Source: Mucilaginibacter daejeonensis (GTDB lineage: Bacteria > Bacteroidota > Bacteroidia > Sphingobacteriales > Sphingobacteriaceae). From it: a DNA stretch of 64,000 nucleotides. Made by a program: the position numbers and the translations under genes. Each line of letters begins with the position of its first letter. Position 1 is the stretch's first letter. The notes under the pieces were generated by a model. The model was not told the origin of the DNA, searched no databases, and was given only the letters and a program-made list of their open reading frames with translations. The stretch covers positions 1,798,001 to 1,862,000 of the forward strand of contig NZ_CP086068.1 of assembly GCF_020783335.1 (NCBI RefSeq). The letters run 5' to 3'. Of the stretch, positions 38,007 through 61,664 are shown in pieces.

Positions 38007-38321
38007 TTAAATTTGCTTAATTTTCGTTCGACATTTGAGTATCGCCTCGATCTTGAGTGTCGCAAATATCGCCGCCGAGATCACAGGGTCTTTAATTTGA
38101 GGTAATTGATCATCGTGAGTCTGCTGTCCCCGTTGTTCTATAAGTGCTATCCCGATAAAGAGCATGTGCGCCATTTCGAGCTTGTCAATGTGATCATCGA
38201 TCGTCAGCTCATGAAGTTCGGTGCCGACGTTGTTCATATTGTATGCCCTGATCTCATCAATGATCTGGTCGACCGAGTTTTCAATCAGTTCAAGGGTATC
38301 GAACAATTCCCGGATCTTCAT
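38007..38321 (-). CDS. Small helical protein downstream of the sigma-Cas12f unit
   Basis: 104 residues, mostly helical and acidic in the first half (MKIRELFDTLELIENSVDQI). No recognised family, no membrane span. It reads in the same direction as the Cas12f-like gene and starts 198 nt after its stop, beyond the hairpin array. It may belong to the same unit, but nothing in the sequence proves it. Confidence 0.55.
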   Translation of the reverse strand: MKIRELFDTLELIENSVDQIIDEIRAYNMNNVGTELHELTIDDHIDKLEMAHMLFIGIALIEQRGQQTHDDQLPQIKDPVISAAIFATLKIEAILKCRTKIKQI

Positions 38322-38417
38322 CTTTTTATCATGTTACATCAAATTCAATTGCCGACGTGATGCGGAAGTTGACCACAATATCAATCCGGCGGAACTGTAT
38401 ACATTTATCGCTATAAC

Positions 38418-38472
38418 GAACGATGCGTTCAGTGAGACGATCTTTGCTCACCCTACGGCTGTACAGGCAGCC
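38418..38472 (-). ncRNA. Three-hairpin RNA candidate (guide/scaffold RNA of the Cas12f-like protein)
   Basis: On the minus strand, 47 nt after the Cas12f-like stop, three tight stems follow one another: GGCTG-N6-CAGCC (38457-38472), GTGAG-N10-CTCAC (38432-38451) and GAACG-cat-CGTTC (38418-38430). No credible gene occupies the stretch 38322-38519. Known TnpB and Cas12f guide RNAs are built from such short stem series, with the guide at the 3' end. On that model the guide would lie towards 38322-38417. This assignment is inferred; no T-rich terminator follows. Confidence 0.55.
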
Positions 38473-38519
38473 TCTATGAACTACTAAACTATTCTCATAT
38501 CTTAGTTGGACCACTTTCT

Positions 38520-39599
38520 CTATTCCATTATTAAGATGATACCCGCTGCCGCAGCCTTATAGGCGATCTTATCCTTCAAACCCTGATAACCCCAATTGCG
38601 TATCAATAGGGGGTCTTCCTTTGCAGTTACCTCTTTGTTCTCCTGGCCGACCAACAAGATCGTTCCCGCCTGATTGCGGACGCATATGTCAATCAGTTGT
38701 TTGCTGTACTTATGGGTCTGCTGCTCACAATATCGATGTTCGAGACCATGGAAGCGTTCCAGATTTTTGTGTTGACGTTTGATTCCATGGTCGTTACGGT
38801 TATAATTGACGCTTTGTTGTGCGCGCTTATATGCTGCCTGGATAGCCAGTCTTTTATAGAAGAATTCCTCTTTATTACCGATACCAAAATGTTGGCTACC
38901 GATCATAACGGTAAGAGGACGCTGCGGGGACAATGATACCTCAGCGATCACAGCACTGTCCAGTGTTTGGATCGTACGGTCCTGCCGATACGAAATGTAT
39001 AAGAATATGCGCGTCCTTTCTAATTTCAAATAGCAGCCAGAGATCTTTGTTCTTCCCCGGAACACATCCCGCAAAAGATCACGCTTGTCATAACCTTTGC
39101 CGATCCAGGTGATAAACGGTACCCCGAATAAAATGAACCTGAAATTTTTACCATCCTCTGCCATGTCAAAACGTTTGATACTAATCGTACTGAAAGGCAA
39201 ATGAATGTCCCTTTTAAAATTGGTCAATGACCTTTCACCCGTATAATAAAGTTTTCGGTTCTGCTGGAAGGAGACATGTAGACGACCGTTCAAAGTATTC
39301 AAGATATCAGTGGGTATCTCACCTTTGAACCGGTCGGACAATAACCGGTAGGTAGAGTTCATATGAGAACTGGTCAGTATACCATCCTTATCAGCTTTTA
39401 TACTGCAAAGCTTAGCACGAGTGCCCTTGTTAAGGTACAGGATCTCTTTGATCTGTTCCTGTAAGTATAGATGCGTATAAATATAGTTCGCGCTTCTAAA
39501 GGCGATCTTTTGCCAGCTATATAATCGTTCCTGGTGAGCTTTGACCTCCGCAGCATCATTTCTATCAATGAACAATTGGATCTTACGGGTGAACATCAT
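38520..39599 (-). CDS. Nuclease-dead Cas12f/TnpB-like protein
   Basis: 359 residues. It matches Cas12f through most of its length: RKIQLFID at the start, an ILYLNKG segment near 53-59, GERSLTNFKRD at 121-131, and LIRNWGYQGLKDKIAYKA near 332-349. The RuvC-I position, normally GVDLG, reads IAEVS, with E220 in place of Asp. The RuvC-II Glu is V317 (ILLVGQ). The protein ends at GIILIME, before the zinc ribbon and RuvC-III Asp. It therefore cannot cut DNA but could still bind a guide RNA and target. It overlaps the sigma factor gene by 4 nt. Confidence 0.83.
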   Translation of the reverse strand: MMFTRKIQLFIDRNDAAEVKAHQERLYSWQKIAFRSANYIYTHLYLQEQIKEILYLNKGTRAKLCSIKADKDGILTSSHMNSTYRLLSDRFKGEIPTDILNTLNGRLHVSFQQNRKLYYTGERSLTNFKRDIHLPFSTISIKRFDMAEDGKNFRFILFGVPFITWIGKGYDKRDLLRDVFRGRTKISGCYLKLERTRIFLYISYRQDRTIQTLDSAVIAEVSLSPQRPLTVMIGSQHFGIGNKEEFFYKRLAIQAAYKRAQQSVNYNRNDHGIKRQHKNLERFHGLEHRYCEQQTHKYSKQLIDICVRNQAGTILLVGQENKEVTAKEDPLLIRNWGYQGLKDKIAYKAAAAGIILIME

Positions 39600-40417
39600 G
39601 CAGCTTTCTCCTTTCTCATTTGCTGGTGGGCGATCACGAAGGCCCGCTGTATATCAGCCTGCTGAATGTTCATCAATTTTGCGATCTCGGCAAAGCTGTA
39701 ACTCAGTTCGTAACGGTAGCGCAGTATATTGGCCTGTTCTTCCGTAAGGCCTCCGGTGAGTACGACCTGTTTCCTGATGACCTGACCATCGGAGACAACT
39801 GCGCCGCTGATCAGTATGCTTTTGAGGAGCGCAATGGTGCTTTCGATCCGTTTAGCTGCCACGTAGCAGGATACGCCACCTAGATGCCAGGCGATACGCT
39901 CATAGTCGAAACCGTGCCGCAATAACAGATCAATCACTTGCTTTTGGCTTCCAGGCAGGCCGGGCAACACAGCGAACAATTGTGCACGTTGCCGTTCCCG
40001 CTCCATGTTTGCCGCCTCAGTAACGGCCTGGCCATTCTCTTGGCGATCGACGGATCCAGGGTCGATCATGAAGTGATCTGCTGCATTCTCGATGCCGTCA
40101 ATTTGGATCAGGCCACGGTAGAACCGGGTAGAGGGAAGCCTATAATAACGATAAACCGCTTGTTTGATCTGGTCATGCAGGAAGTCATTCAAGTGTCCCA
40201 GATCCTTGATGTTCACCCTACATTGCCAAAGGCGTAAAAAGCCTTCCTGGGCGATACTGGTGGCCGCTATATCTTCCTTGACCATTCGCTGCGCCATGTA
40301 AAGAAAGTTGGGAAACAATTTGCGGTACAAAAAGGCAAATCCAATCTCTTGTGCTTCTCTGAAAAGCTCAAAGTGTACGTGGAACTCTTTGCTATATTTG
40401 ACCGCTGATCGTGACAT
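39596..40417 (-). CDS. Sigma-70 family factor partnered with the Cas12f-like protein
   Basis: 273 residues, larger than a usual ECF factor. Region 2 is at about 28-70 (FLYRKLFPNFLYMAQRM, IAQEGFLRLW). Two region-4-like helix-turn-helix segments follow: one at about 155-200 (KQVIDLLLRHGFDYERIAWHL) and one at 223-270 (EEQANILRYRYELSYSFAEI). Its TGA overlaps the ATG of the Cas12f-like gene (ATGA), so both are made together. Reports of nuclease-dead Cas12f proteins that recruit an ECF sigma factor make RNA-guided transcription the leading hypothesis. No anti-sigma gene is near. Confidence 0.78.
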   Translation of the reverse strand: MSRSAVKYSKEFHVHFELFREAQEIGFAFLYRKLFPNFLYMAQRMVKEDIAATSIAQEGFLRLWQCRVNIKDLGHLNDFLHDQIKQAVYRYYRLPSTRFYRGLIQIDGIENAADHFMIDPGSVDRQENGQAVTEAANMERERQRAQLFAVLPGLPGSQKQVIDLLLRHGFDYERIAWHLGGVSCYVAAKRIESTIALLKSILISGAVVSDGQVIRKQVVLTGGLTEEQANILRYRYELSYSFAEIAKLMNIQQADIQRAFVIAHQQMRKEKAA

Positions 40418-40548: not shown

Positions 40549-40929
40549 ATGGCAGAAACAATACATATCGGAAGAAAGATCAGCCGTATCCGGGAATTAA
40601 GAGGTATGAAGCAGGATGCTTTAGCTGCGCAATTGGGTATTAGTCAGCAGGCTATATCTAAGCTAGAGCAAAGCGAAAATGTTGAAGATGAAACTTTAGA
40701 AAAGGTTGCCAAAATTTTAAACGTTTCACCAGAAGCTATCAAGAATTTTAGCGAAGAGGCTGTTTTTAATAATATTAACACTTTCCATGACAACAGTTCT
40801 TTGAACGATTATAGCTCGTTATTAAATTATCAGTGTACTTTCAACCCTATCGATAAAATTGTAGAGTTGTATGAGCGCCTGCTCAAAAGTGAACAGGAAA
40901 AAGTCGAGCTACTTAAAAATTCCAAGTAG
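40549..40929 (+). CDS. XRE-family regulator
   Basis: 126 residues. A helix-turn-helix covers about 7-62 (IGRKISRIRELRGMKQDALA, AQLGISQQAISKLEQSE). The C-terminal half is helical (KIVELYERLLKSEQEKVELL), probably for dimerisation. It is divergent from the sigma-Cas12f unit and likely controls it and itself through the TTGTA repeats in between. The RRM gene follows 5 nt after its stop. Confidence 0.83.
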   Translation: MAETIHIGRKISRIRELRGMKQDALAAQLGISQQAISKLEQSENVEDETLEKVAKILNVSPEAIKNFSEEAVFNNINTFHDNSSLNDYSSLLNYQCTFNPIDKIVELYERLLKSEQEKVELLKNSK

Positions 40930-42390: not shown

Positions 42391-43161
42391 TCAAACCTTC
42401 AATTTATTTCTGTTGGAACGCTTTGTTTCATGAGACACCTCCTGTGTCCCTTCTGTTCTTTTGGTCTCTTTAGCAGACCTTGCTGAAGTGAAGAGCAATT
42501 CCTCCCGCCTGACCTTTTCTCTATGCTCATTGAACACCGAAACGGTCTTATATTGCGGGTCAGCGGCGATGTAATATTTTCGGTCGCCCGTTTCACCGCT
42601 TACGGTCACTTGCTGTGCATTGCCTTTTTTCAACGATCTAAGCAGGTCATCTTTCGCCTTAGGGCTTTCCATTTCCTTGATCCCTTTACCGGTAATAACC
42701 TTCTCGATGTCATAACCATAATTCTCATGATAGTGTTTCATCTTTTTGCTGCCCTTATCCGTAAGGTTCTGGTCATCTAATGCCAACCAAGCCGTATAAC
42801 GCTGGCCTTCCAGATTCGTTAGTTGTTTTTGCACAGCACGTCCTTCCATCAGGTTGAACGCCTCTTTAGCAGTGACCCCATGACCTTTATTGATATAAAA
42901 GGTCTGCGCGTCTCCCTGCGCCTGTCCGTTCGCATCAGTGATCCTGGTATCGTACTTGTTAAAGAAATATATCTCCTGTTCATTCCCTGCTTTGAAATGC
43001 AAGGTATGGTCGACATTCTTATTATCGAACCGATGGGACGTGTTCAAAGTGAACTCCGGCAGCCGGGCGTTGATGTTGCGTTCCAGTTCCTCATTCATTT
43101 TGTCGCCGAACCCCAGGTTCAGCAAACTTTTCTTCAGAAATTCTGCATTTTGTGTATTCAT
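42391..43161 (-). CDS. Element protein of unknown function (DUF3945-like)
   Basis: 256 residues, soluble and highly charged. The C-terminus is basic (ETKRSNRNKLKV). Segments such as DQTFYINKGHGVTAKEAFNL-type text and TAWLALDDQNLTDKGSKKMK recall DUF3945/DUF4099-like proteins encoded in Bacteroidota conjugative elements, but the match is only by eye. It has no signal peptide, so it is not a TraN-type outer membrane component. Single gene, with gaps on both sides. Confidence 0.55.
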   Translation of the reverse strand: MNTQNAEFLKKSLLNLGFGDKMNEELERNINARLPEFTLNTSHRFDNKNVDHTLHFKAGNEQEIYFFNKYDTRITDANGQAQGDAQTFYINKGHGVTAKEAFNLMEGRAVQKQLTNLEGQRYTAWLALDDQNLTDKGSKKMKHYHENYGYDIEKVITGKGIKEMESPKAKDDLLRSLKKGNAQQVTVSGETGDRKYYIAADPQYKTVSVFNEHREKVRREELLFTSARSAKETKRTEGTQEVSHETKRSNRNKLKV

Positions 43162-43553
43162 AATTGTGGTATTTATTTTTCAACCTGGTCTTTCACAAGT
43201 GATAGGGTCAGAGTGACTAATGATGGCGCTCATTAAAGATCTGCACGCAACTAGAAGGGGCTGAGACCGATGCATGTGACCCCTCTTTTAAGGATATCTC
43301 AGTCTCGAAACTTCCGAACCTTTTTTCATTCGGCGTGTTCGTATGCCGAAGGTGATAGTTACCAACACCGATCATCTTTGCTATCGCTGTCAAAGTTCAG
43401 TACGATATAATGCCTGCCTTGAAGCGATGCGTTGCTTTTTTGAGTAATAGACCAATGGTTATAGACATTCTTAAAAGTTCAACAAATGCCGATGCATCTA
43501 TGCCATAGTATGTATTCGAGATCCGACCTTTTAAGCACTTGCTCTTTGTTATA
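43162..43553. other. Intergenic region where traN/traO would be expected
   Basis: 392 nt with no gene I can support lie downstream of traM. In CTnDOT-type elements traN and traO normally follow traM here. Only short, featureless reading frames are seen. Confidence 0.4.
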
Positions 43554-44579
43554 TTAATTTCCCTTTTTGAGCAGTACCGGGTACTCATCGCTTAGTTTAA
43601 CTTTGATCTTTTTCATCTTTTTGCTGAAAAGGTCTTTGGCGGCGTTGATACCACCCGCAGCAGCCTGTCCCGCGATGGACTGGTCCATGCTCATGATCTG
43701 CATGCTTTGTAGGGTCTGATCAGCATTATTGCTGGTCACGCCGCTCAGTTCCGCTTCAGGTGCTGGTATGCCGGGCATTCCGTCCTGGCTGAATACCGTA
43801 AGCTCGACCGGTATGATCTGGGTCCCGAGACGGATGGTCTTGATATTGACCAGCAGCCGCTGGTTAACCACATGCCCCGTGCCGAAAAGTTCCTGCCCCT
43901 TTTCCAGCAATTGTCCTTTGATCGTTGCGGTGTCGGTCAGTCTTAGTTTAACGGCCGCGCCATCGGCCACTTTCTGTTTCCCATCGATCACGGCCGGTAT
44001 CGCACGGAACGGTTTAGCAGGTTCGGTAGATCTAGTTTCTTCTTTTGACGGAGCCGCATTGGGGTTCTGTATGGCCTGTATCTTATCCAGCATCTTGTCG
44101 AGTTGCTTCAACTCCGGGTCCGGCTCGTTAGCAGATGCGGTTTGTTGCCGCATCATCCTATTAAGGCGTTTGACCTGCGCCGGGTCGGGTTCATCCGCAT
44201 AATGCGATGAACTTGCCTTCGGCTCATTGATCTGTTTGTTGAGTTTGGCCAGTTTTTCTTGTATGGCGTCGGCCTGTGCATCGGCATTTTGGGTGCTGTC
44301 CTGTTTTGACGTACCATTTTGATCGAGCCCGACCGCTTTGAGGAACTCGGGGGAGACGCCGTTCTGTCCCGAATCACGTTTGGCCGATTGGTAGATGGTA
44401 AGCTTGTCACTTTTCTCTTTGTCCTTGAATTGCGCCTGCGGCAGATCGGTATCGAGGCCTTTGTTCTGTACGATGGTTTGGCCGTCTCCTTTACCGCCGC
44501 CCAATGCCCAGAAAGCGAGCGTCAGGAACGGGATCACCAGTAGCGGCAATACTAGCAGGAACTTCTTTTGCTTCTCCAT
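43554..44579 (-). CDS. traM: Conjugative transposon protein TraM (VirB10-like)
   Basis: 341 residues. One N-terminal membrane span (FLLVLPLLVIPFLTLAFWAL), then a long polar linker rich in Gln, Lys and Asp, and a C-terminal conserved domain from about 195 (KPFRAIPAVIDGKQKVADG, IKTIRLGTQIIPVELTVF). This is the layout of CTnDOT TraM, a scaffold of the type IV secretion core. It lies 5 nt after the traL-like gene and is the last tra gene of the operon present here. Confidence 0.88.
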   Translation of the reverse strand: MEKQKKFLLVLPLLVIPFLTLAFWALGGGKGDGQTIVQNKGLDTDLPQAQFKDKEKSDKLTIYQSAKRDSGQNGVSPEFLKAVGLDQNGTSKQDSTQNADAQADAIQEKLAKLNKQINEPKASSSHYADEPDPAQVKRLNRMMRQQTASANEPDPELKQLDKMLDKIQAIQNPNAAPSKEETRSTEPAKPFRAIPAVIDGKQKVADGAAVKLRLTDTATIKGQLLEKGQELFGTGHVVNQRLLVNIKTIRLGTQIIPVELTVFSQDGMPGIPAPEAELSGVTSNNADQTLQSMQIMSMDQSIAGQAAAGGINAAKDLFSKKMKKIKVKLSDEYPVLLKKGN

Positions 44580-44584
44580 ATTCG

Positions 44585-44809
44585 TTATCGTTTATGTGTT
44601 GAACTAATTGGTGGCAACTCCCCTGATGGGCTGCCGATGTTGACCGGGGTACTAATGCAGAAAACTTTTGCATCGAAGCTGATGAACCGTATACAGATCC
44701 AACCGACCAGGATAATGACCACGAAGCTTAGGATGAGCAGCCATTTACGGGTGCCGTTGTCCTTTCCGTTGAACCATTGGCTTAGCTTTTCAATTGATGT
44801 CTGTATCAT
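44585..44809 (-). CDS. Small membrane protein, TraL-like
   Basis: 74 residues with one membrane span (WLLILSFVVIILVGWICI). It lies between traK and traM, where TraL is found in CTnDOT-type operons. Naming it TraL rests on size and position. It overlaps traK by 4 nt. Confidence 0.65.
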   Translation of the reverse strand: MIQTSIEKLSQWFNGKDNGTRKWLLILSFVVIILVGWICIRFISFDAKVFCISTPVNIGSPSGELPPISSTHKR

Positions 44810-45423
44810 GGCGTGCTGGTTGTCGTATCACGATTAATGATGGTTTCCCATTTCTCGATGAGGAAACCATGAGGGTTATTGTCGGAGCGGCCTACATTAC
44901 GCAGGTAGCCTTTGGTGATCAGTACTTTGTGGATGGTCGAGGTCGCCCTTACCAGTTTCTCTTTGGCATAGCATTTAAAGAAATAGGGATAGCTATTCAT
45001 ATTGAGCTGAATGCTGTCTACCTGTATCTCCTGGCTGATGTTACCCGAGATGAGGTTATTGTAATAGCTTTTCTCCTTTAAGCCATTGTACTGGTTACTG
45101 GCGCTTTCATCCGCCAGGTATAAAGCCTTGCGGATATTGCCCTCGATCACTTTCTCATCCGGGTCGAGCGTAAAAAAGTAATGATGGAACATTTTGATGT
45201 GGTCACGTGCCTCCACCGGAATGTTCTCCCTGCGATCTGCTGACATCGCTTCTAATGCTTTACCATTCGCCAGTACGTACACTTTGGCATCTGCCTTTTG
45301 GTAAGCGCGAAAGGCCAGGTACATGGCGGCGATGGCGATCAGTGCACTGGTGATGATGACGAGCGCGACGATCCGTTTGTTCTGCTGGAACGCCGTTTCG
45401 ATGTTTCTTAAATGACTGAACAT
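44806..45423 (-). CDS. traK: Conjugative transposon protein TraK (VirB8-like)
   Basis: 205 residues. N-terminal MFSHLRNIETAFQQNKRIVA then one membrane span (LVIITSALIAIAAMYLAF) and a periplasmic domain, the standard TraK layout. It is in the order traJ-traK-traL-traM and starts 5 nt after traJ. The C-terminus ends TTTSTP. Confidence 0.88.
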   Translation of the reverse strand: MFSHLRNIETAFQQNKRIVALVIITSALIAIAAMYLAFRAYQKADAKVYVLANGKALEAMSADRRENIPVEARDHIKMFHHYFFTLDPDEKVIEGNIRKALYLADESASNQYNGLKEKSYYNNLISGNISQEIQVDSIQLNMNSYPYFFKCYAKEKLVRATSTIHKVLITKGYLRNVGRSDNNPHGFLIEKWETIINRDTTTSTP

Positions 45424-45428
45424 GGTGT

Positions 45429-46643
45429 TTATGTTTTAGGGTTTCCATTGAGTTTTTCGGCCTGGTAGGACGATGGCTGTTTATCTGCACTCTTGTTTTG
45501 ACCATCCCACGTGTAGCCGGAGTTGGTGATGATGTTACCGCTGCTTTGAGACCTCTGTCCTGATGAAACGTTGCCTATGCTACCGAGCGAATTGCGTACA
45601 TTACTGACAGTTACTCCCGTCAGGTTGGTCACTTTGTTGAGCAGGCCGTTGGCACCACCGGGATGGATAATTAAACCGGTCACGGCAGGTACGGTGAAAT
45701 AGCCGATGATACCGATCAGCAGGAAAATGAGATAGGCGGTGTCGGTGGAACTGAAGAACGTATCTCCGGCATTTTGCACCTGCTCGATGTCCAGTTTGAG
45801 CATATTCTCCTGCACCTTACCGATGATACTGCCAAAGATGTTGGCCACCGGTAACCATAGGAAAACGTTGAGATAACGTGACAGCCACGACGTGAGCGTA
45901 TGCTGGAAGCCGTCGAACACCGACAGGCCGAAGACCAGGGGGCCGAGGATGGCGAGCACGATCAGGTAAAAAGTGCGGATGGTATTGATGCAAAGCGCAG
46001 CTGCCTCGAACACGACCTGTAACACTTCGCTCAGCCATTGCTTCACACTATTGCGGAACCTAAAGCTCGCTTTATCCATGGCGAACTTGACATCATTGCC
46101 CAGCCCGGAAAGCATGCCTTCATTTTCGCCGGTGGGATCATCGGGGTGGGTGTACTTGTACCATATGTCGCGGTCACCTTCCCCGTCATTGCCGACATAC
46201 ATCTGCCAAGTATCGGTCTTTTCGATAGCTGCCTGCTTGGCTTCGAGCAGTTTGGCAATGGCCGCATCGGAGTTCTTCACCATGCCTGCCGTAGCGGTCA
46301 CGGTCGGCTTCATCACCCCGTTGATCATACCGATCACGGCCGGGAATAATAGGATTGCCATGCCTAAAGCGAAAGGACGCAACAGTGGGTACAGGTCGAT
46401 GGATTCCGCGTTGGCGATATGCCGCCATACTCTTGCTGCGATATACCATAAGGCACCGAAGCCGGCGATACCACGCGCCACGCCGATGAGCTGGCTGCAC
46501 AGCGGCATCATCTCATCATAGACCTGATCCAGCACGCTTTGCAGGCCGTGGATATCGGTTGCCAGGCCTTCGGCACGGGATAGTAAGGGAGAGACCATCC
46601 CCGTCAGGGCCAGTACGGCGCCGATGAATAGTTTCTTTTTCAT
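45429..46643 (-). CDS. traJ: Conjugative transposon protein TraJ (VirB6-like)
   Basis: 404 residues. A signal-like start (LFIGAVLALTGMVSPLLSRA) is followed by at least five membrane spans (for example GIAGFGALWYIAARV, FALGMAILLFPAVIGMI, YLIVLAILGPLVFGLSVF). The C-terminal tail is Ser/Asn/Gln-rich. It forms part of the inner membrane channel of the type IV system. It lies 22 nt downstream of the traI-like genes. Confidence 0.88.
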   Translation of the reverse strand: MKKKLFIGAVLALTGMVSPLLSRAEGLATDIHGLQSVLDQVYDEMMPLCSQLIGVARGIAGFGALWYIAARVWRHIANAESIDLYPLLRPFALGMAILLFPAVIGMINGVMKPTVTATAGMVKNSDAAIAKLLEAKQAAIEKTDTWQMYVGNDGEGDRDIWYKYTHPDDPTGENEGMLSGLGNDVKFAMDKASFRFRNSVKQWLSEVLQVVFEAAALCINTIRTFYLIVLAILGPLVFGLSVFDGFQHTLTSWLSRYLNVFLWLPVANIFGSIIGKVQENMLKLDIEQVQNAGDTFFSSTDTAYLIFLLIGIIGYFTVPAVTGLIIHPGGANGLLNKVTNLTGVTVSNVRNSLGSIGNVSSGQRSQSSGNIITNSGYTWDGQNKSADKQPSSYQAEKLNGNPKT

Positions 46644-46665
46644 AGCTATAGGTTTTTTGAGGTTT

Positions 46666-47310
46666 CTATTGGATACCGTAAAGCTGCTTGAGCGTCCGGG
46701 TATCGTTCAAGTCCTTGCTGCGGCCAAGGCTGAGCATGACGGCCTTACGGTTGAACCAGCGCAGGAACTGCAATTGTTCCGTGCTGTTGGTATAGATCCG
46801 GTCAATGGCACGCAGCCTATCATCATCTGTCATCCGCAACTCATTCGCTTTCATCACGGAGCCTAGGTCATCGACATTGTTATTGCTTTGCTTCACCAAT
46901 TGGTCGAACACGTTATCAATGTAGCCGAGTTCCTTATTATTGAAACTGCCGCTCTTTCGAAAAAGATCGCGGTAGCGTTTGTATTCGTTCACGAGATCGT
47001 ACTGCTGTTCGATGACCTGGTTTACCCTTGGGTTATCCCGCACCGCCGGGCTGACTGCCAATAAACCTGTCAGGTAAACGTTGTGCAAATTGAAGTTGCC
47101 TTTCGATAGGTTCGAGATCGTACCATAGCCCTGCTGGTAGATCTGGTAACCCTTTTTCATATCCGAGAGGATAGCCTTGAACTGCGTCAGCTTTTCGATG
47201 TTGAGCGCTAACTGTTGCAGTTCATCGGCCTGGGCATTGGCTTTCATTGTTATGAGGAGGATGCTGCACAGAATGAGCAGGCAACCTTTCCATTTATTTA
47301 TCGCTTCCAT
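46666..47310 (-). CDS. TraI-like secreted protein, third paralogue
   Basis: 214 residues. Signal peptide (GCLLILCSILLITMKANA), then a helical domain with QALNIEKLTQFKAIL-like content, RMTDDDRLRAIDRIYTNSTE and a final TRTLKQLYGIQ. The last motif (xTIKxLYG) is shared with the two genes upstream, so the three are paralogues. It overlaps the middle gene by 17 nt. A TerB-like label is sometimes given to such proteins, and a role in the transfer channel is inferred. Confidence 0.75.
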   Translation of the reverse strand: MEAINKWKGCLLILCSILLITMKANAQADELQQLALNIEKLTQFKAILSDMKKGYQIYQQGYGTISNLSKGNFNLHNVYLTGLLAVSPAVRDNPRVNQVIEQQYDLVNEYKRYRDLFRKSGSFNNKELGYIDNVFDQLVKQSNNNVDDLGSVMKANELRMTDDDRLRAIDRIYTNSTEQLQFLRWFNRKAVMLSLGRSKDLNDTRTLKQLYGIQ

Positions 47311-47983
47311 ATAACTTCTTTATGGTGTTCACGTCCTTAAGCTCTTTATCCTTTTGCAAAGCATAGAGCCTGACCTCTTCGGTCATTGCTGCGGCAAAAC
47401 GGTAGTTGTCCTGCATGTTGTCATACAGGCGGCCGATCTGCCGCAGGCGCTGCTCATCGCTCATTTCGGTTCGGTCGTTCTCCAGTATGATCTGTAGGTC
47501 GTGTAACTGGCCATCACAATCTTTCAGCAGCGCTGTGCAGGCATCTTTTACATGCTGCTTTTCCGTTTGGTTGAGCCCCCTGGTGGCTTTGGCCTTTGCG
47601 GTCTGTTCCAGTATTTCACGCTGCCAGCGCAGGATGGCTTTGACCTGCGGGTCGTTACTGACGACCGTGTTCACCGTTTTGAGGTTCGTATAATAGCTTT
47701 CATGCAGGCCATACTCTTTGCCGACATAACTACCGATAGAACCCAGCCCGCCTTTGGCGATGTTATAGCCTTTCATGGCGTACTGCTTGTACATCCACAG
47801 GGCTGAGATCTGCTGGAGCAGGTATTTGCGCTGCGTCTTTTTTTGATCGAACCATTCGGCGAACGTTTGTGCCTGCACGTGTTGCTTGCCGATGACCAGG
47901 GTCATGGCGGCAAAGGCCAGCAGACTTTTTGCCGCTTTTTTTAGCGTGCTGGCTTTGCGGTATGCTTTTTCAATGGAAGCCAT
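47294..47983 (-). CDS. TraI-like secreted protein, second paralogue
   Basis: 229 residues. Basic start, signal-like segment (LLAFAAMTLVIGKQHVQA), then a helical domain. DRTEMSDEQRLRQIGRLYDN and the ending NTIKKLYGSDK match the adjacent paralogues. It overlaps traI by 14 nt and the third copy by 17 nt, so all three are tightly coupled. Confidence 0.75.
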   Translation of the reverse strand: MASIEKAYRKASTLKKAAKSLLAFAAMTLVIGKQHVQAQTFAEWFDQKKTQRKYLLQQISALWMYKQYAMKGYNIAKGGLGSIGSYVGKEYGLHESYYTNLKTVNTVVSNDPQVKAILRWQREILEQTAKAKATRGLNQTEKQHVKDACTALLKDCDGQLHDLQIILENDRTEMSDEQRLRQIGRLYDNMQDNYRFAAAMTEEVRLYALQKDKELKDVNTIKKLYGSDK

Positions 47984-48632
47984 AATATTGCTTGATGGTG
48001 TTCACTTCGTTCAGGTCCTTGCTGCGGTGCAAACTCAGGATCATGTTCTGGTTATTGTATTGCTTCAGGTCCCCATAGTTCTCATCGAGACGGTCACCCG
48101 CCTTGTTGATCATCTCCAGCCGCTGCTGGTCGGTCATCTGCGTTTTACCGGGGTTGATGGCGAGCATCACCTGGTCAAGGTTCTTGGCGCTGGCATCCAG
48201 TATGCCTAAATACACTTTCTGCATCTCGGCCAGTTCCTCCGGCTTGAAATGCTTATCGGCACCGAACAGCTTCCAGGCGCGCTGATATTCCCCGACGAGA
48301 GCGACCTGTTTCATACTGACCTCTTTGACCCGCTGGTAATAGGCGATGGCCGACTTGACCTTGCGCAGTTCTTTGTAATATTCATCATAGAGTTTGCGCT
48401 GCTTATCCGTCCAGTTGGAGATCTCATCCAACCGGAACTTGGCCAACTGGTTCTCGATCGTCTTTTGGGTGTTCTGCAACCAGATCGTTTTGTTCTGCAA
48501 GCGCTGCACCTGCAGGTCGATCGCTTTGATCACTTTTTTGATGATCGTGGTGATGATCTGGTACTGGGCATTGGCCTGGTAGGTGCCGAATGACAGTATT
48601 GCGGCGATCAGTAGTATTCTCAATGCTTTCAT
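47970..48632 (-). CDS. traI: Conjugative transposon protein TraI
   Basis: 220 residues from the ATG at 48630-48632; an upstream in-frame extension lacks a signal peptide and overlaps the previous gene. Signal peptide (ILLIAAILSFGTYQANA), then KVIKAIDLQVQRLQNKTIWL and LDEISNWTDKQRKLYDEYY, which are highly characteristic of CTnDOT TraI. The protein is periplasmic and essential for transfer in related elements, though its precise part is unclear. Confidence 0.88.
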   Translation of the reverse strand: MKALRILLIAAILSFGTYQANAQYQIITTIIKKVIKAIDLQVQRLQNKTIWLQNTQKTIENQLAKFRLDEISNWTDKQRKLYDEYYKELRKVKSAIAYYQRVKEVSMKQVALVGEYQRAWKLFGADKHFKPEELAEMQKVYLGILDASAKNLDQVMLAINPGKTQMTDQQRLEMINKAGDRLDENYGDLKQYNNQNMILSLHRSKDLNEVNTIKQYYGFH

Positions 48633-48943
48633 GGCGCTTTGGTGTAAATTGTGTGACCGATGATGACCTGATCCTCTTTGAACAGCACCGGCGGTGCGTT
48701 CTCGCTGTTGATCTGCCACGTTCGTGTTTTGTGTCCCTCTGGTAGCAGCTTACCCTTACGTATCTTTTGATAACCCGTTCGCCTGGTGATAAAATTGCCG
48801 TTTACGATGAGCGTATCATCGGCCACCGAGTATTCACCTTTCAGGTGGGCGGTATAGATACCGTCATGATTGGTTGTATTCTGGCAGGCGATTGCATTGA
48901 TGGCGATGATCGCTATGATCACGATAATGAGGTACTTTTTCAT
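48629..48943 (-). CDS. Small lipoprotein between traG and traI
   Basis: 104 residues from the ATG at 48941-48943, which overlaps the traG stop by 4 nt. The signal peptide ends in a lipobox-like AINAIACQ, so the mature protein starts with a lipid-bearing Cys. The rest is a small beta-rich domain (GEYSVADDTLIVNGNF). Its family is unknown; the position suggests an outer-membrane or periplasmic accessory of the transfer machine. Confidence 0.7.
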   Translation of the reverse strand: MKKYLIIVIIAIIAINAIACQNTTNHDGIYTAHLKGEYSVADDTLIVNGNFITRRTGYQKIRKGKLLPEGHKTRTWQINSENAPPVLFKEDQVIIGHTIYTKAP

Positions 48944-51399
48944 GCGGCTTTCTCCTTTCCTTCTTTTTCTTCCTGCACGATGACCGAAATGGCTTTTTTG
49001 ATATCGCCATACTTGGCCTGGCACTTTTTCACTTTGGCCTTCTCGCTCGATTCGGTGGTATAGGTCCAGTATTCCTCGCGGCTTACTTCCGTGCGGTACA
49101 CGCGGGAGAGCTGGCCGTTCAGACTGATGAACACTTCCTTGTAGCGGTACCTCGGGTCGTTCGCGCGGTTCATGCTCATGATCATCGCCGTCTCCTTATC
49201 GGTGATGCCTAAGAGTTGCTGGATCTTCGGGAAATCGTTCTGGTACTTGCGTTGGTCGAGCAGGATCTTACAGTCACTGTTATTGATGATGGCCTGTTTG
49301 ACCACGGGTGAACTGATGATATCCTCGATGTCCTGCGTCACCACCAATGCTTCGCCAAAATACTTACGCACCGTTTTGAACAGGTATTTGATGTATTCGG
49401 CCATGCCTTCCCTTGCGATCGCTTTCCAGGCCTCCTCGATCAGGATCATTTTTCGCGTCTCCTTGGGTAACTTGCGCATCTTGGAAACAAAGGTCTCCAT
49501 GATGATGAGCGTCACCACCGGGAACAGGATCGGGTGATCTTTGATATTGTCCAGCTCGAACACGATAAAGCGACGTTGCAGCAGCTCGAGGTTTTCGGTG
49601 GCATTGAGCAAATAGTCATATTCCCCGCCTTTATAGTACGGCCGCAACACGAACAGCAGGTTATCGATGTCAAAGTGTTTATCTTTTACCTTGCTTTCCT
49701 TCATCGTTTCGTAGAACGGGCCTTTCAGGAACTCGTAGAACGTATCGAAGCAGGCAAAGCCATCCAGTTGCTCATAGTAATGGAACAGCGCATCGGAGAT
49801 CGCGATGTATTCAGAGCGTTGCACGCCTTCATCCTCTTTTTTCCATAAGGCCAGGATCATGGCCTTGATGCTTTCCCGCTTTTCAGTATCGAGCGTATCG
49901 CCTTCACCTATATGGAAGGGATTGAAGCTGATCGGCTTTTGCTCACTGTAGGTGAAGTAATAGCCGCCCACGAACTCGCATAGGCCTTCATAACTATGGC
50001 CAACATCGACCAGTACGATATGGGCACCCTGTTCATAGTAGCTACGCAGCAGGTGGTTGGTGAAGAACGACTTTCCGCTGCCCGATGGGCCTAAGATGAA
50101 CTTGTTGCGGTTGGTAGTGATACCGCTCTTCATCGGTTCATCGCTCAGGTCGACGTGAAGGGGCCTGCCGCTGAGGCGGTCACCCAGCCGTATCCCGCAG
50201 GGTGACACGCTGCTCCGGTAGTTGGTCTCCAGGTTGAGGAAACAGCAGGCCTGCTCAGCGAACGTATCAAAAGTATCGTTGATGGGCAGGTCTCCCGCGT
50301 TGCCGGGCAGACCAGCCCACCAGATCTGCGGCGCACCATCCGTTTCCTGTTTGGGCTGGGCGTCCAGTTGCGCCAACGCCGAACTGACCTTGTTCTTGAC
50401 CTCTTTTTGTTCATTGAGGTCACTCGTCCAGGCAAGGATATTGAAATGGGCTTTGACCGGCAACCGTTGCTGGCTGATCGCCTCATTCAGGAACTCCTGT
50501 ATGGCATCATGACCGATGGCATTCTCCCGCGAGTAACCGGCGAGCGAACGCAGCCTTAGCTTTTTCGCTTCGAGCGCTTTGATCGTTTTGGCCGCATCAC
50601 CGATGATGAGGTACTGGTTATAGATGTGGTCACAATCCAGCAGCGCACCGACCGGTGTGGTAAAACCCGTGCTGAACTTGGTCTTGTCCGTGCTGTAGGC
50701 ATCATAGGTGACCCTTGGCCCGCACAGGGCGGGCAGGTCGTTCACATCGGCCAGGGTAAAGAGCTGGCCGTGATCATCACCGATCCGTATACCGTCCTTC
50801 AGGTGAATGTCCCGCAGTAGCGGTTTGTCGGCATCGCCCAAGAGGAAACAGTATTGTTCCAGTATACCTGCCTTAATTTCTGTACCTGCAAGTTCATCAT
50901 TGCTCAACCTTCGCAGTTCCACGAGGCCGCTGTCCTCCAGTACGCGCTTGAACTGCCCGGCCTGGTCGGTGAAGTCGCGGAAATGTTCGGCGCTTACGGC
51001 TTCTTTCGGGGTGATGTGCCTGCGCATCAGCGTGCTCATGGCGCTGCTCACGGGCCTATGGTTGTTGGGACGTTTGGTGAGCATCATCAGGCAGCGATGG
51101 TCGAGATACGGCCGCTCGTTGAAAAAACGCTCGCTGGCCTGGCTCAAAAAGGTGTGCTCACCAAATGCTGCTTTGTAACCTTTACTGGTAAAACGGTCCT
51201 GTTTATGGAAGATGCTGTGTTTCGGGAGAAGCCTCACCGCTTTCACCCAGGCCTGGTGAAAGGCCATGTATTCCTCGTTGGAAAGGGTGAACAGTTCGGG
51301 CAGGCGCACCTCGAAGGCAATGGTCACATCACCATGGACAGAGACCATCGCGTCATGCTCCACTTTACAGATCGGAAAGATGTGCTCAGCGCTTTTCAT
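48940..51399 (-). CDS. traG: Conjugation ATPase TraG (VirB4-like)
   Basis: 819 residues. Walker A LGPSGSGKSFFTNHLL near residue 435, Walker B KMILIEEAWKAI near 660, and a TrwB/VirB4-type C-terminal end (MNRANDPRYRYKEVFISLNG). The N-terminal half carries the TraG-type segment DVTIAFEVRLPELFTLSNEE. This is the motor of the conjugation channel, in the membrane/cytoplasm. It overlaps traF by 14 nt and the lipoprotein gene by 4 nt. Confidence 0.93.
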   Translation of the reverse strand: MKSAEHIFPICKVEHDAMVSVHGDVTIAFEVRLPELFTLSNEEYMAFHQAWVKAVRLLPKHSIFHKQDRFTSKGYKAAFGEHTFLSQASERFFNERPYLDHRCLMMLTKRPNNHRPVSSAMSTLMRRHITPKEAVSAEHFRDFTDQAGQFKRVLEDSGLVELRRLSNDELAGTEIKAGILEQYCFLLGDADKPLLRDIHLKDGIRIGDDHGQLFTLADVNDLPALCGPRVTYDAYSTDKTKFSTGFTTPVGALLDCDHIYNQYLIIGDAAKTIKALEAKKLRLRSLAGYSRENAIGHDAIQEFLNEAISQQRLPVKAHFNILAWTSDLNEQKEVKNKVSSALAQLDAQPKQETDGAPQIWWAGLPGNAGDLPINDTFDTFAEQACCFLNLETNYRSSVSPCGIRLGDRLSGRPLHVDLSDEPMKSGITTNRNKFILGPSGSGKSFFTNHLLRSYYEQGAHIVLVDVGHSYEGLCEFVGGYYFTYSEQKPISFNPFHIGEGDTLDTEKRESIKAMILALWKKEDEGVQRSEYIAISDALFHYYEQLDGFACFDTFYEFLKGPFYETMKESKVKDKHFDIDNLLFVLRPYYKGGEYDYLLNATENLELLQRRFIVFELDNIKDHPILFPVVTLIIMETFVSKMRKLPKETRKMILIEEAWKAIAREGMAEYIKYLFKTVRKYFGEALVVTQDIEDIISSPVVKQAIINNSDCKILLDQRKYQNDFPKIQQLLGITDKETAMIMSMNRANDPRYRYKEVFISLNGQLSRVYRTEVSREEYWTYTTESSEKAKVKKCQAKYGDIKKAISVIVQEEKEGKEKAA

Positions 51400-51691
51400 A
51401 AAAGATCCTCCTTGTGCTGAATTTGATGTAATTGGGTATTTGCCGTTTGGCGGCCATTTTCATCAGGCCGTGCTCGCCATACTTATGACTGAGTTGGAAG
51501 ACCTTATAGAACAATGCACTGCCCGATCCCAATATGACCGACAGGCAGATGTATATCTTGATGCCGGCCAAGTATAGGACCGTGAATAAAAGCAACAATA
51601 GCACTAAGCCTATACCCAGGTACATGATGTATTGAGCCTGAAGTCCCTTGAACTCGACAGGCCTGTTGATACCTTTATTGATCGCGTACAT
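51386..51691 (-). CDS. traF: Conjugative transposon protein TraF (DUF4133)
   Basis: 101 residues from the ATG at 51689-51691; the open frame extends upstream into traE but without sense. MYAINKGINRPVEFKGLQAQ is the DUF4133 signature, followed by two membrane spans (YLGIGLVLLLLLFTVLYLAG and IYICLSVILGSGSALFY). It is the VirB3-like partner of TraG, whose gene it overlaps. Confidence 0.88.
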   Translation of the reverse strand: MYAINKGINRPVEFKGLQAQYIMYLGIGLVLLLLLFTVLYLAGIKIYICLSVILGSGSALFYKVFQLSHKYGEHGLMKMAAKRQIPNYIKFSTRRIFYEKR

Positions 51692-51701
51692 AAGCTGATA
51701 T

Positions 51702-52040
51702 TTAAACGCCAAAGAATGACTTGAGAATGGTGGAGACGACGACCAAAAAGATGCAACCACCGAACCAGGCAGACGCCACCTTCCCGGTATCACCGTCACC
51801 ATCCTGAAATTTCTTGTAGACCTTTACGGCACCGACCAACCCGATGATCGCGCCTATGGCGTACATCAGACTTGTGCCACCTTCAAAATAGCCTTTGACC
51901 TGGCCGGTCGCTTCATTGATACCCGCGTTGCCGTCCTGGGCATATAGGGGAAAGGTAAATGTGAGCAGCAAAAGCGTGATCACTGAGCTCCTCAGATTAT
52001 CGTACCGGGAGATCTTTTTTTTAATTTCTTTGATCTTCAT
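51702..52040 (-). CDS. traE: Conjugative transposon protein TraE (DUF4134)
   Basis: 112 residues. Signal peptide (VITLLLLTFTFPLYAQD), then INEATGQVKGYFEGGTSLMY and two membrane spans (AIGAIIGLVGAVKVYKKF, FGGCIFLVVVSTILKSFF). DUF4134 proteins are VirB2/pilin-like subunits of these systems. It lies 10 nt upstream of traF. Confidence 0.88.
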   Translation of the reverse strand: MKIKEIKKKISRYDNLRSSVITLLLLTFTFPLYAQDGNAGINEATGQVKGYFEGGTSLMYAIGAIIGLVGAVKVYKKFQDGDGDTGKVASAWFGGCIFLVVVSTILKSFFGV

Positions 52041-52069
52041 GATCTTGGGTTAAATGGTTACAGATAATG

Positions 52070-52606
52070 TTAATTGGTTTGTTCGTGAAATTCAGCGACC
52101 GTAACGGGGAAAGGGAGTTTGGACCGGGCCAGCCCAGCTATCTGTTCAATGGAACTTCGAAGGTCAATAGCTGCGAGACAACGTTCATAAGGGCCGACCA
52201 AGATCCTAAAGAGTGTGAGGAATCCTTCTTTGTCGTTGGTCTCCCGAAACGCATCAATTAGTTCGTTCGCCTGCTGATAAAGGCCTTGACCGGCTGAAGG
52301 GGGCTGATCTTTGTTCTGGTGAGTAGTGGGAGAGGTATCCCTCTTTTCGATAAGCTCATCGACTGGGGCGAATCGCAGTTCTTCCTGATCGACAAAACTG
52401 ACATCTGCGCTGTCCCGAGCATCGCCCAGTACATGACCGGTCGGGCGTGGGGAGGGAGTGTCGGCGTCCGGAGGCGATCGACGCTTACTTTGAAAAGCCT
52501 TGAAAAAAGCCTCCCGATAATAGCGGGCAATGACATAAAGATAATAAAGCCCTGCAATAATGATAACGGCTGCAAAATATTGCTGCCAGGATACGTTAGA
52601 CAACAT
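52070..52606 (-). CDS. Element membrane protein of unknown function, upstream of traE
   Basis: 178 residues. One N-terminal membrane span (YFAAVIIIAGLYYLYVIARYY), then a Pro/Asp-rich disordered region and a helical C-terminal domain (LTLFRILVGPYERCLAAIDL). It is 29 nt upstream of traE and probably the first gene of the tra operon. No known family is recognised; the position is that of TraC/TraD-like small proteins in related elements. Confidence 0.6.
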   Translation of the reverse strand: MLSNVSWQQYFAAVIIIAGLYYLYVIARYYREAFFKAFQSKRRSPPDADTPSPRPTGHVLGDARDSADVSFVDQEELRFAPVDELIEKRDTSPTTHQNKDQPPSAGQGLYQQANELIDAFRETNDKEGFLTLFRILVGPYERCLAAIDLRSSIEQIAGLARSKLPFPVTVAEFHEQTN

Positions 52607-52683
52607 GATACTTTACTTTAAAGGTCATCTGCACCATGCAGCGACCGGTAAAGCAAAGGTTGGGTCATTCGGATCATTTTATT

Positions 52684-52707
52684 CACACCTCATGTAGAGG
52701 TGATGTG
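52684..52707. promoter_or_regulatory. Palindromic operator-like element upstream of the tra operon
   Basis: CACCTC-atgta-GAGGTG at 52686-52702, flanked by a wider CAC...GTG pair, 80 nt before the first gene of the operon. On the minus strand it continues ACATGAGGTGTGA, the same text as at 58176-58195. Confidence 0.55.
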
Positions 52708-52744
52708 TTTTTTTATGAGTACTGGCATGTCTCGTGCGTCAGAA

Positions 52745-53611
52745 CTAAAAATTCATAGAGCTTTGACCATGGGCATCATGGTCGAACTTCTCATCGATCC
52801 TCCTCAACAGCGAGATCTTCAATTTATCGAGGAAAGCCGTGCGGTCCTTCTTCCGGCGGGTGATATCCGTGTATTTGTGATAATAGGCACCGAGTTCAAT
52901 GTGGAAAACCATTTGGAAACAGTTCACCACCGAACGGATCTCTACATTACCGTTATTGAATACACCCGCAGCTACAAGCGCATAGATCAGCTCGATGAGG
53001 TCGGTCTTGTTAAAGGTCCAGGTCAAGGGTAGTTCCATATCTTGCTCTGTACGGGCTTCGTCCGGATTGTTGATCCTGATCAGTTCTGTGTTCAGAAACT
53101 CCTGGTATCGTTCGTTGGCAATGATATTTGACAACTTATAATCGTGGCTGGTGGAATAGATCTCATCCTCTTCGAATTTTTCCAGTTCCACATGCACATC
53201 GAAGCCACCCCTGGTAAAATAGACCCGATCCATCAGCGTTGAGCCTGAACGATAATATTGATAAAAAGCTGCGTTATGGTCGAAATACCGTTTAAGGTCG
53301 GCCAGTTCCGAGTAGATATATTCCTTGAGGTGATCTTCGGCCCCGGTAGGGCGTTTCATCAGGAAATTATAAACGCTGATAAAATAGATGTACTTGCTGT
53401 AAAAACGAGGCTTTACGACCTTAAAGAACTCGATCTCTTCATCGGTGTCCTGAAATACATAACTGGAAATGTAATTCTTAAGTTTTGCCATCGCTTTTTT
53501 ACAAATCATGATAGAGCTTTTATAACGGGAGGCGAGAGACTCCCCATTCCCCGAGAGCTCATTCAACTCATTTTCCAGGGCAGTAAAAAGTCGGTCAGCT
53601 ATCGTATGCAT
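52745..53611 (-). CDS. rteC: RteC-like regulator
   Basis: 288 residues. The sequence fits the RteC family over its length, with ELADLKRYFDHNAAFYQYYR, a FTRGGFDVHVELEKF segment, and a winged-helix-like C-terminal half (TFNKTDLIELIYALVAAGVF, NVEIRSVVNCFQMVFHIELG). Known RteC activates excision genes in CTnDOT. Here it lies between the tra operon and the mobilisation genes. RteA and RteB were not found. Confidence 0.85.
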   Translation of the reverse strand: MHTIADRLFTALENELNELSGNGESLASRYKSSIMICKKAMAKLKNYISSYVFQDTDEEIEFFKVVKPRFYSKYIYFISVYNFLMKRPTGAEDHLKEYIYSELADLKRYFDHNAAFYQYYRSGSTLMDRVYFTRGGFDVHVELEKFEEDEIYSTSHDYKLSNIIANERYQEFLNTELIRINNPDEARTEQDMELPLTWTFNKTDLIELIYALVAAGVFNNGNVEIRSVVNCFQMVFHIELGAYYHKYTDITRRKKDRTAFLDKLKISLLRRIDEKFDHDAHGQSSMNF

Positions 53612-53738
53612 AAAGTGAAAAGGTATGTACTGTTAACTTTTACGCAATACTAAAGATAGGCGTTACCACATGTTTATCGAAAATTAACGTTTTGATGCAT
53701 TATTATTAATATTTGAATTTGACGATATTTCTTATGGA

Positions 53739-55667: not shown

Positions 55668-55678
55668 GATTTCATTAT

Positions 55679-56932
55679 TTAAAGTGAATGACCTCTGCGC
55701 TTTTTCTTACGCTTTCTTTGCTGGGTATCTCCAATAGTGTCCGTACGTTCTCTTTCTCCCTGAAAAAGGACCTCGATAGCCGACCGGTCATCATAGTGTT
55801 GCCCATCATCGCTCACCAAGGATGATCTTATAGATAGATCTGTACGTAACACCATAGTTTGCTGGGGCAGAATCGCCGGATCAGTTCTCTGCGCAAAATG
55901 TTGAGAGAGACCGTTAGCGCTGTGTTCTTTGCATAGATCGCTGCCATTGAATACCGCCTTAATGTGATGATCAACGAAAGTGACGCCATACAGCCTGCCA
56001 TCGTTGCTGTGTCTGAAGATGGCATCGATATTTTGATCCTTCAACTTCACCTGAAATTCAGCTGTCGTATTTGAGTTAGCAAGTACCTTGTCAATTCGAT
56101 CTCTTAGTTCTACCCTAAGAACTTTTCTCAGTACCTCATTCAAGGTAAACCGCCCCTCAAGAGTTCTGATCGTTGGCTTGCCATAAATGCTACTGGCCTT
56201 AATGGGGACGCCGATCTTACCACCTTTAACATCTAAAGCCCAATAGACCAACCCGTTCTTCTCGAACATCTTCGATTCTTTGCCACCTCGGTCAGCGGTC
56301 ACATTGAAGGTGTTCAGTACAGCATTCAATTCAGGAAGGCTGGTAAACTTGTAGGTGCGCAACACCTCGTTGACCACATTGGTTATTGCCCGTTTAGTTT
56401 CTGACCGACCATAGGTGACCTGCTCCAGGGATAGGGAGGGGAAAAGCTTTTGATCTTTCCTCTGATCTTCTGCCTTGATCAGTCCAAAATCTTTCTCTAC
56501 CTTTTTTCTAGATAGCTCTGACGCCTTATTCGCCAGCAAATGAAAACTGATCCTATCTCCGTCCGGTCTGATATTCGTCGAAACGATATGGAGGTGCGGA
56601 TGACCGGCATCGTAGTGCTGATAGACCAAATAGGGCTGCCTGCCAAACCCTAAACCTTCCATGTACTCATTTGCTATCTGCTGCAACGTTCCCTGACCTA
56701 AATTTTCGCCCATGGCAAAGTTCAACGAGACATGCAGCGCGTTGACCTGCGTACGTTCGTTCCTTCTGGTCAGGTCTGTCAACCGCTCGACCTTGTTATC
56801 AAAAGTGAGGTCACACGGTTCCTTCAGATAGCCCTGAGCCATGATCAGTTCTGCCTTTCCCGAACACACTTTGTGTTCGTTATAATTTATTGCGCCGACG
56901 ATACATCGTCCGGTCTTAATTTTTGCGACCAT
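55679..56932 (-). CDS. mobB: Relaxase MobB
   Basis: 417 residues. The metal-binding motif HYDAGHPHLHIVSTNIRPDG near residues 106-125 is the three-His signature of MobP-type relaxases. An N-terminal Tyr in GAINYNEHKV may be the nucleophile. The region INPVNEVLRTYKF-like to FTLNEVLRKVL fits relaxase_MobB family members. It nicks at oriT and stays bound to the 5' end. Its start overlaps mobA by 46 nt, in another frame. Confidence 0.9.
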   Translation of the reverse strand: MVAKIKTGRCIVGAINYNEHKVCSGKAELIMAQGYLKEPCDLTFDNKVERLTDLTRRNERTQVNALHVSLNFAMGENLGQGTLQQIANEYMEGLGFGRQPYLVYQHYDAGHPHLHIVSTNIRPDGDRISFHLLANKASELSRKKVEKDFGLIKAEDQRKDQKLFPSLSLEQVTYGRSETKRAITNVVNEVLRTYKFTSLPELNAVLNTFNVTADRGGKESKMFEKNGLVYWALDVKGGKIGVPIKASSIYGKPTIRTLEGRFTLNEVLRKVLRVELRDRIDKVLANSNTTAEFQVKLKDQNIDAIFRHSNDGRLYGVTFVDHHIKAVFNGSDLCKEHSANGLSQHFAQRTDPAILPQQTMVLRTDLSIRSSLVSDDGQHYDDRSAIEVLFQGERERTDTIGDTQQRKRKKKRRGHSL

Positions 56933-57309: not shown

Positions 57310-57327
57310 ACCACTCGTCATTTAAAT

Positions 57328-61659: not shown

Positions 61660-61664
61660 GAAGC

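Follow-up and report, generated by a model that had tools for sequence, protein, structure and literature searches.

Introduction

The closest described relatives of the locus reported here are the dCas12f-sigmaE systems, on which Hoffmann, Sternberg and colleagues, and Xiao, Chang and colleagues, reportedly posted preprints in 2025. These systems are said to use a 5'-G TAM and to have RNA polymerase initiate transcription a fixed distance downstream of the R-loop. Structures of dCas12f-sigmaE systems were released in December 2025. To our knowledge, little has been established about the natural role of these systems. TldR proteins, which are nuclease-dead relatives of TnpB, are described as RNA-guided repressors (PMC13418256).

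We analyzed a stretch of 64,000 nucleotides from Mucilaginibacter daejeonensis (NZ_CP086068.1, positions 1,798,001 to 1,862,000), hereafter the window, in which a sigma factor gene and a Cas12f-like gene lie on a conjugative element. The locus is a further member of an already known family, and its predicted guide-RNA gene is what is new here.

A sigma factor and a predicted nuclease-dead Cas12f in one unit

The first-pass annotation had read a sigma factor of 273 residues and a Cas12f-like protein of 359 residues whose genes share ATGA, and both were found, with this overlap, on the minus strand (Table 1). Its description of the two as fused was wrong: they are separate genes that overlap. 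Promoter and terminator scans gave counts not above those of shuffled sequences, and TANNTTTG, which we take to be the Bacteroidota -7 promoter motif, was rarer in the motif scan than in shuffles. A gene at 40935-41297 for a small RRM-like protein, so labeled from a reading of its sequence, adjoins the XRE gene.

Table 1. Features of the dCas12f-sigmaE unit and its surroundings, in window coordinates.
Feature	Position	Strand	Remarks
Sigma factor gene (sigmaE, dCas12f-sigmaE family), 273 aa	39596..40417	-	First gene of the unit
Nuclease-dead Cas12f-like gene (dCas12f), 359 aa	38520..39599	-	ATGA overlap with the sigma gene
Two-hairpin guide-RNA scaffold core, GAGGC...CTCACTGAA	38428..38474	-	45 bases past the dCas12f stop; covariance model R1
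Repeat-like 3' end of the scaffold, terminating TGTATACAG	38395..38427	-	Locus comparison and conservation with M. aquatilis from TAAATG on
Predicted guide, TTCCGCCGGATTGAT	38380..38394	-	One difference from M. aquatilis; conservation stops sharply beyond
104-aa ORF	38007..38321	-	Behind the guide; M. aquatilis homolog at the equal place
Divergent XRE-type repressor-like gene	40549..40929	+	HTH_3, E=2.6e-13
Conjugation and mobilization genes, among them TraM, TraJ, TraG P-loop, RteC, T4CP, relaxase and MobC	42391..57321	-	Pfam

Relatives of dCas12f were found in 95 of the 399 genomes of the same taxonomic family that were searched, and a protein search found 379 dCas12f homologs, of which the best 120 are listed. 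Searches of plasmid and phage collections and of viral contigs found no dCas12f relative. We inspected 40 loci, namely the window, the M. aquatilis locus (L036, genome G141), a second locus from the window's own genome (L038) and 37 stretches of 20 kb (L120-L156) that come mostly from the upper score table and are not a random sample. All 40 have a sigma match on the same strand at most 0.8 kb upstream of dCas12f; the gap in L135 is 750 bases, and in L132, L134, L150, L154 and L155 the ORF finder returned a short sigma ORF. The dCas12f proteins of the window and M. aquatilis are 82% identical. In a quick tree, the window's protein belongs to a clade of five with a stem of 0.79 changes per column and an SH-aLRT of 100.

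A single PDB chain matched the sigma factor at E<=0.01, chain C of 9n9q ('RpoE', E=4.4e-29), over residues 15-268 of 273 against 5-251 of 261. The TIGR02937 profile also matched (E=7.8e-17), Pfam places a sigma-70 region 4 at residues 223-263, and a sigma-70 region 2 is present below Pfam's cut-off. Among the sigma proteins scanned, region 4 was matched in every one (21/21) and region 2, at E 0.01, in 11/21. A sigma factor with two region-4-like segments had been put forward as new; given that the C-terminal region 4 recurs in all 21 proteins and that the solved sigma factor aligns nearly end to end, this region is a trait of the family.

By phmmer, the best solved relative of the window's dCas12f is 9n9c, 'Nuclease-deactivated Cas12f' (E=7e-94, residues 3-358); 9n9m, 9n9o and 9n9q also contain a dCas12f sequence, and Cas12f effectors rank behind this group, from E=1.9e-25 on. 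With a match this strong and a sigma match upstream in 40/40 inspected loci, the observation is not a matter of chance. Entry 9n9q contains both the sigma and the dCas12f sequences, and since our dCas12f matches the 9n9c group and our sigma factor matches 9n9q, the two proteins are each related to a member of the same solved pair.

The predicted fold of dCas12f (mean pLDDT 80.8, pTM 0.60, from a 30-row alignment) has as its top Foldseek matches 9n9m (E=5.1e-34), which is titled as a dCas12f-gRNA-DNA complex (partial R-Loop), and 9n9c, followed by Cas12f nucleases, with 41-45% identity to the solved dCas12f in the structure alignments. The lack of a RuvC/Cas12f fold, which had been named as grounds for abandoning the idea, was thus not what the prediction returned. 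In a profile comparison with the TnpB and Cas12f families, likewise suggested beforehand, the PADLOC Cas12f model matches at E=2.5e-36, and the guided_TnpB model scores a weak 36.9 bits against a cut-off of 100.

The two Cas12f landmarks named in the first-pass annotation begin at residues 121 (GERSLTNFKRD) and 332 (LIRNWGYQGL), and the early stop is borne out by residue 354, which aligns to 412-414 of 506-508 in Al3Cas12f. Loss of both acidic RuvC residues holds as well, with a shift of two residues for one of them, as the RuvC-I position is S222 and not E220. In the phmmer alignment, S222 lies opposite the Asp of GVDLG in Al3Cas12f, presumably its RuvC-I Asp. Among aligned homologs, E220 is invariant (30/30), position 222 is S in 26, A in 4 and never D, and position 317, a V in the window, is in no case Glu (30/30), where 317 as the RuvC-II site is an ungapped reading of a place at which the printed alignment is gapped. 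With S222 and V317 in place of the RuvC-I Asp and RuvC-II Glu, and with an end before RuvC-III, the protein departs from the Cas12f nucleases on each count, and the conclusion from these alignments that dCas12f lacks the RuvC catalytic residues stands; the protein is predicted not to cut DNA. The shortening of the protein had also been considered new; it is the norm of the family, with dCas12f ORFs of 340-383 aa in the 40 inspected loci and a solved relative of 365 aa that also ends before RuvC-III.

A predicted guide-RNA gene downstream of dCas12f

A block of the form GAGGC...GCCGTAGGGTGAG...CTCACTAAA recurs downstream of many dCas12f genes, singly or in rows. We defined the scaffold from these relatives in the present analysis, and not from a publication, by aligning 46 blocks. 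The window, L003, L004 and L036 were left out, identical blocks and those with no clear end were omitted, one of 47 blocks was dropped as too short and three were trimmed at the start. A two-hairpin structure pairs 96.5% of helix cells, against 27-48% for slid structures. Changes on both sides of a pair were seen in 11 cells, against 2.0 in shuffles, and the covariation score was above that of 500/500 shuffles, which ignore the relatedness of the blocks. The weak one of the five measures was the number of pairs with both-side changes (3), equaled by 50/500 shuffles.

Built from this window-free alignment, covariance model R1 scores 55.5 bits at the window's scaffold core, for an E-value of 1.3e-12 when 144 kb are searched and of 4.2e-11 when the own genome is, and 56.5 bits at that of M. 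aquatilis. The own genome has five scaffold matches among the 150 of 1257 first-look candidates that were scored, and all are beside its two dCas12f genes, one in the window and four at the second unit. A family scaffold adjoining dCas12f counts toward membership in the dCas12f-sigmaE family and, judged by its sequence, the window unit is a member. Taken alone, the guide RNA has modest fold z-scores (-0.48 to -1.30), and Rfam gave nothing at gathering score in the window.

Array-like relatives have a repeat-like end, ...ATACAAC or ...ATACAAT, that is followed by a variable part; the counterpart in the window ends TGTATACAGT. This repeat-like end would set the start of the guide at 38393 or 38394, so that the first T of TTCCGCCGGATTGAT is either scaffold or guide. 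Among the relatives, CRISPR-like arrays occur beside single-guide genes; in L014/L136 and L032/L145, a repeat resembling TTTGAAAGGTATATACAA recurs in rows behind the scaffold, its copies separated by variable parts.

A predicted guide shared by two mobile elements

The scaffold cores of the window and M. aquatilis differ at three positions. From the end TAAATGTATACAG through the next 15 bases, TTCCGCCGGA[T/G]TGAT, there is one difference. Divergence is seen in the hairpin arms in between, ahead of the scaffold and past the guide. Different mobile elements thus share a guide that is one base apart, a pattern which, with two sequences compared, is suggestive, though no proof, of selection on about 14-16 nt of the guide. 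A 104-aa ORF lies ~73 nt from the start of the guide; its M. aquatilis counterpart (L036 6698-6997) is 38% identical (E=2e-23), and a protein search with this ORF returned its own protein only. An IS110-family transposase gene at window 36715-37803 is directly behind this ORF.

Guides recur elsewhere as well. Seven congeneric units (L005, L006, L008, L010, L012, L013 and L015) have a common guide, GGCTCGCTTRT(T)CGT, for which the four genomes searched held one one-mismatch site besides the guide genes and the controls five. A second recurrent guide, GG[GT]CTGCTGTWATTCC-like, is found across genera.

Searches for guide targets

Across 149 congeneric genomes, the exact guide with G ahead of it occurs in the two guide genes only. 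Allowing at most one mismatch in the 16 nt with G, we found 31 sites in 27 of the 149 genomes, of which 29 are non-guide sites (28 fetched), against 17 for the reversed pattern; the own genome and M. aquatilis have no such site except the guide genes. The exact 16 nt gave two further sites in the 399 family genomes, where the reversed pattern gave 0 and the chance estimate is about two, and both sites are antisense within long ORFs. Genomes G136 and G258 carry all 15 guide bases in coding DNA, with A or T ahead instead of G. The longest match to the window's guide among 58 fetched other sites (L089, G136:C11:293790-293805) covers 19/20 guide bases on the sense strand of an lpxC-like ORF, has A ahead and belongs to a genome with no dCas12f match. 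As 58 sites make a four-base extension unsurprising and the own genome (G000) has no site of such quality, we regard it as a weak lead, likely due to chance.

Looser patterns were also run. In G000, 20 nt with at most 3 mismatches returned, apart from the guide gene, a single site, which we dismissed; it is located where an ORF begins whose first residues resemble a signal peptide. Patterns of 15 nt with at most 2 mismatches, guide genes included, gave 19 sites against 17 reversed in G000 and 22 against 7 reversed in G141, a threefold excess of two-mismatch sites in G141 that is unlike the own genome. We fetched 30 of the 41 sites, 15 from each genome and the two guide genes among them; the other 28 all fall within open frames of 90 codons or more, a weak criterion when either strand counts. 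G plus the first 10 nt gave one further site in each of G000 and G141, where the reversed pattern gave 4 and 2. Translated, the reverse complement of the guide reads I-N-P-A-E, which resembles what we take to be the SusC plug motif, and a SusC plug target was rejected when no row among 62 (58 other sites and the two guide genes twice) fitted the motif pattern; the L158 site is in a SusC-like gene, but at another place and in another frame.

Near the units themselves, 14 nt with at most one mismatch gave 28 matches in the 40 unit stretches, against 1 for the reversed pattern. These are mostly in neighboring guide genes or repeats, with few exceptions (window 51416, L122, L152 and the direct repeats of L135). 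For 82 repeat-end-anchored guides with a leading G, matches near units were not above controls, scaffold copies aside, and one 12-nt register gave 9 against 0-2 in controls, 6/9 being scaffold copies. A guide of the second unit (system 2) matched its own gene only (16 nt, at most one mismatch), and searches with guides of system 2 and of four congeners gave no good site, one search having one 16-of-19 site against one in the control. In sum, there is no convincing guide target in the searched genomes or near units. The natural targets would be either imperfect or located off these chromosomes, and given a conserved guide with no conspicuous match on the chromosomes, we think that the targets are most likely either imperfect or carried by other mobile DNA.

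The same searches bear on two other accounts of the unit. It may have decayed, such that the proteins persist and the guide has no remaining target in the host, as the failure to find one would suggest. We hold this to be unlikely, since the guide and scaffold have stayed alike between the window and M. aquatilis where the neighboring noncoding DNA has diverged, and both reading frames are intact in the window and in M. aquatilis. Alternatively, the guide could act in cis, its own gene being a legal target from which transcription would run toward the 104-aa ORF. A guide that starts at the first T has G directly ahead of it in its own gene. This G is common to both species, with the ORF at equal distance, and with G the guide gene is the sole match at one mismatch or fewer of 16 in either genome. 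A self-target could change freely in sequence, yet it is the guide that has been kept and the DNA behind it that has diverged; further, in the array-like relatives read, ACAA is followed by C or T, which would move the start in the window one base later and put T ahead, not G. Such a self-acting unit therefore seems to us quite improbable.

Two units on sister conjugative elements

The genes that surround the unit include Pfam matches to TraM (1.4e-46), CtnDOT_TraJ (7e-13), P-loop_TraG (3.6e-217), RteC (1.2e-75), T4SS-DNA_transf (1.3e-18), Relaxase (1e-25) and MobC_2 (1.3e-10). An integrase-like match outside the window, at G000:C1:1874255-1875397, would belong to the same element, which with its tra operon, relaxase, coupling protein and this integrase match has the makings of a CTnDOT-type element. 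The setting in an ICE, claimed beforehand as new, is thus real as to the conjugation set and integrase match but not unique, as 11/40 inspected loci are near mobility genes (matches to an integrase, a relaxase or tra genes that score 60 bits or more, with tra genes in 3 of them), a lower bound given that the queries were proteins of these elements. On the quick tree, the mobility label needs 7 changes, and branches with strong support force at least 4 of these. The label also shows clustering, as the shuffled mean is 10.0 changes and 8/500 shuffles were as low.

The own genome carries a second dCas12f-sigmaE unit at G000:C1:2494476-2498552 (L002, within 2487001-2507000, L038), with a dCas12f 45% identical to the window's and four guide-RNA scaffolds. 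It is on a sister conjugative element with an integrase match near 2473.8-2474.9 kb. Between the DUF932 region and MobC, parts of the backbone of this element are 66.8-81.5% identical in DNA to the window's; in the window, backbone similarity begins at ~31.4 kb. Both units, each with a divergent XRE gene, are flanked by the DUF932 gene on one side and by the tra genes, TraM end first, on the other, and because the XRE match runs opposite to the backbone matches, the units are flipped relative to one another. The two dCas12f proteins fall in different parts of the quick tree. The XRE gene was dismissed as a specific partner of dCas12f, since it belongs to such elements in general, with matches in 90/149 congeneric genomes, and dCas12f is found in few.

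In L036 1-14653, the M. aquatilis unit is between tyrosine integrases (3047-4267 and 5723-6622) and a DUF5712 gene (11133-12077), and no tra gene of the window's type was matched in this 20-kb stretch; from its gene content, we assign it to a different kind of mobile element. Window 59501-63194 encodes a Vsr endonuclease, a C5 cytosine methylase for which DrmMII is the best PADLOC model, and a GHKL protein that is MzaB-like (E=1.3e-44); together these possibly form Mza-like defense cargo of the element.

Discussion

We consider it likely that the sigma factor, the Cas12f without RuvC catalytic residues and the predicted guide RNA on this conjugative element act together as an RNA-guided sigma factor, with transcription starting where DNA matches the guide. 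This reading builds on gene order, homology to the solved pair, the absence of catalytic residues, a scaffold that a covariance model recovered independently of the window, and the conservation of the guide in a second mobile element. The guide RNA would be made and then bound by dCas12f, the guide would pair with DNA adjoining a short TAM, 5'-G, and the resulting R-loop would position the sigma factor such that RNA polymerase initiates a fixed distance downstream. Recruitment of RNA polymerase by the pair, proposed from the first and still a prediction, has partial support, in that the pair fits the family by sequence, dCas12f by its predicted fold and the locus by its predicted guide-RNA gene. 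That dCas12f would instead block promoters as TldR does, with the sigma factor controlling only the unit's own expression, is highly improbable: nuclease-dead TnpB relatives do repress (PMC13418256), and there is the weak guided_TnpB score, but a sigma match is upstream in 40/40 inspected loci and the solved 9n9q entry contains both proteins.

Selection appears to act on the guide in two mobile elements of different kinds, and in one genome two sister conjugative elements each carry a unit in the corresponding interval. These observations make a question testable, namely which genes a mobile element switches on through RNA guidance and whether its transfer is affected. Very tentatively, mobile elements of Bacteroidota might have acquired RNA-guided sigma factors as remote controls, the guide here turning on genes on incoming or rival DNA, or in particular hosts, and not one on the element's own chromosome, with units swapping in one backbone slot in either orientation, though we would sooner doubt this than rely on it. 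The scaffold model is a means to find guide genes of the dCas12f-sigmaE family.

Comparison with known systems

The CTnDOT-type elements of Bacteroidota resemble the window's element in TraM, TraJ, TraG, RteC, relaxase, T4CP and the integrase match, and differ in that here a dCas12f-sigmaE unit is cargo. TldR proteins are likewise exapted, nuclease-dead, RNA-guided regulators that may be on mobile DNA (PMC13418256); in the window, the TnpB model is below its cut-off and the sigma partner suggests activation. CRISPR type V-F Cas12f nucleases (Al3Cas12f, AsCas12f and the Cas12f1 of 7l48) share the fold, with Foldseek E=1.8e-19 to 6.5e-12, whereas the window's protein is missing the catalytic residues and the C-terminal part and is linked to a sigma factor. 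Closest are the dCas12f-sigmaE systems (9n9c, 9n9m and 9n9q), in which both proteins are homologous nearly over their full length, the sigma gene is beside dCas12f, the catalytic residues and C-terminus are likewise lost and, by the titles of the entries, the solved complexes contain a guide RNA. From these, the window unit is set apart by an identity of 41-45%, a separate clade on a long stem, its place on a conjugative element and a guide held in common with another mobile element.
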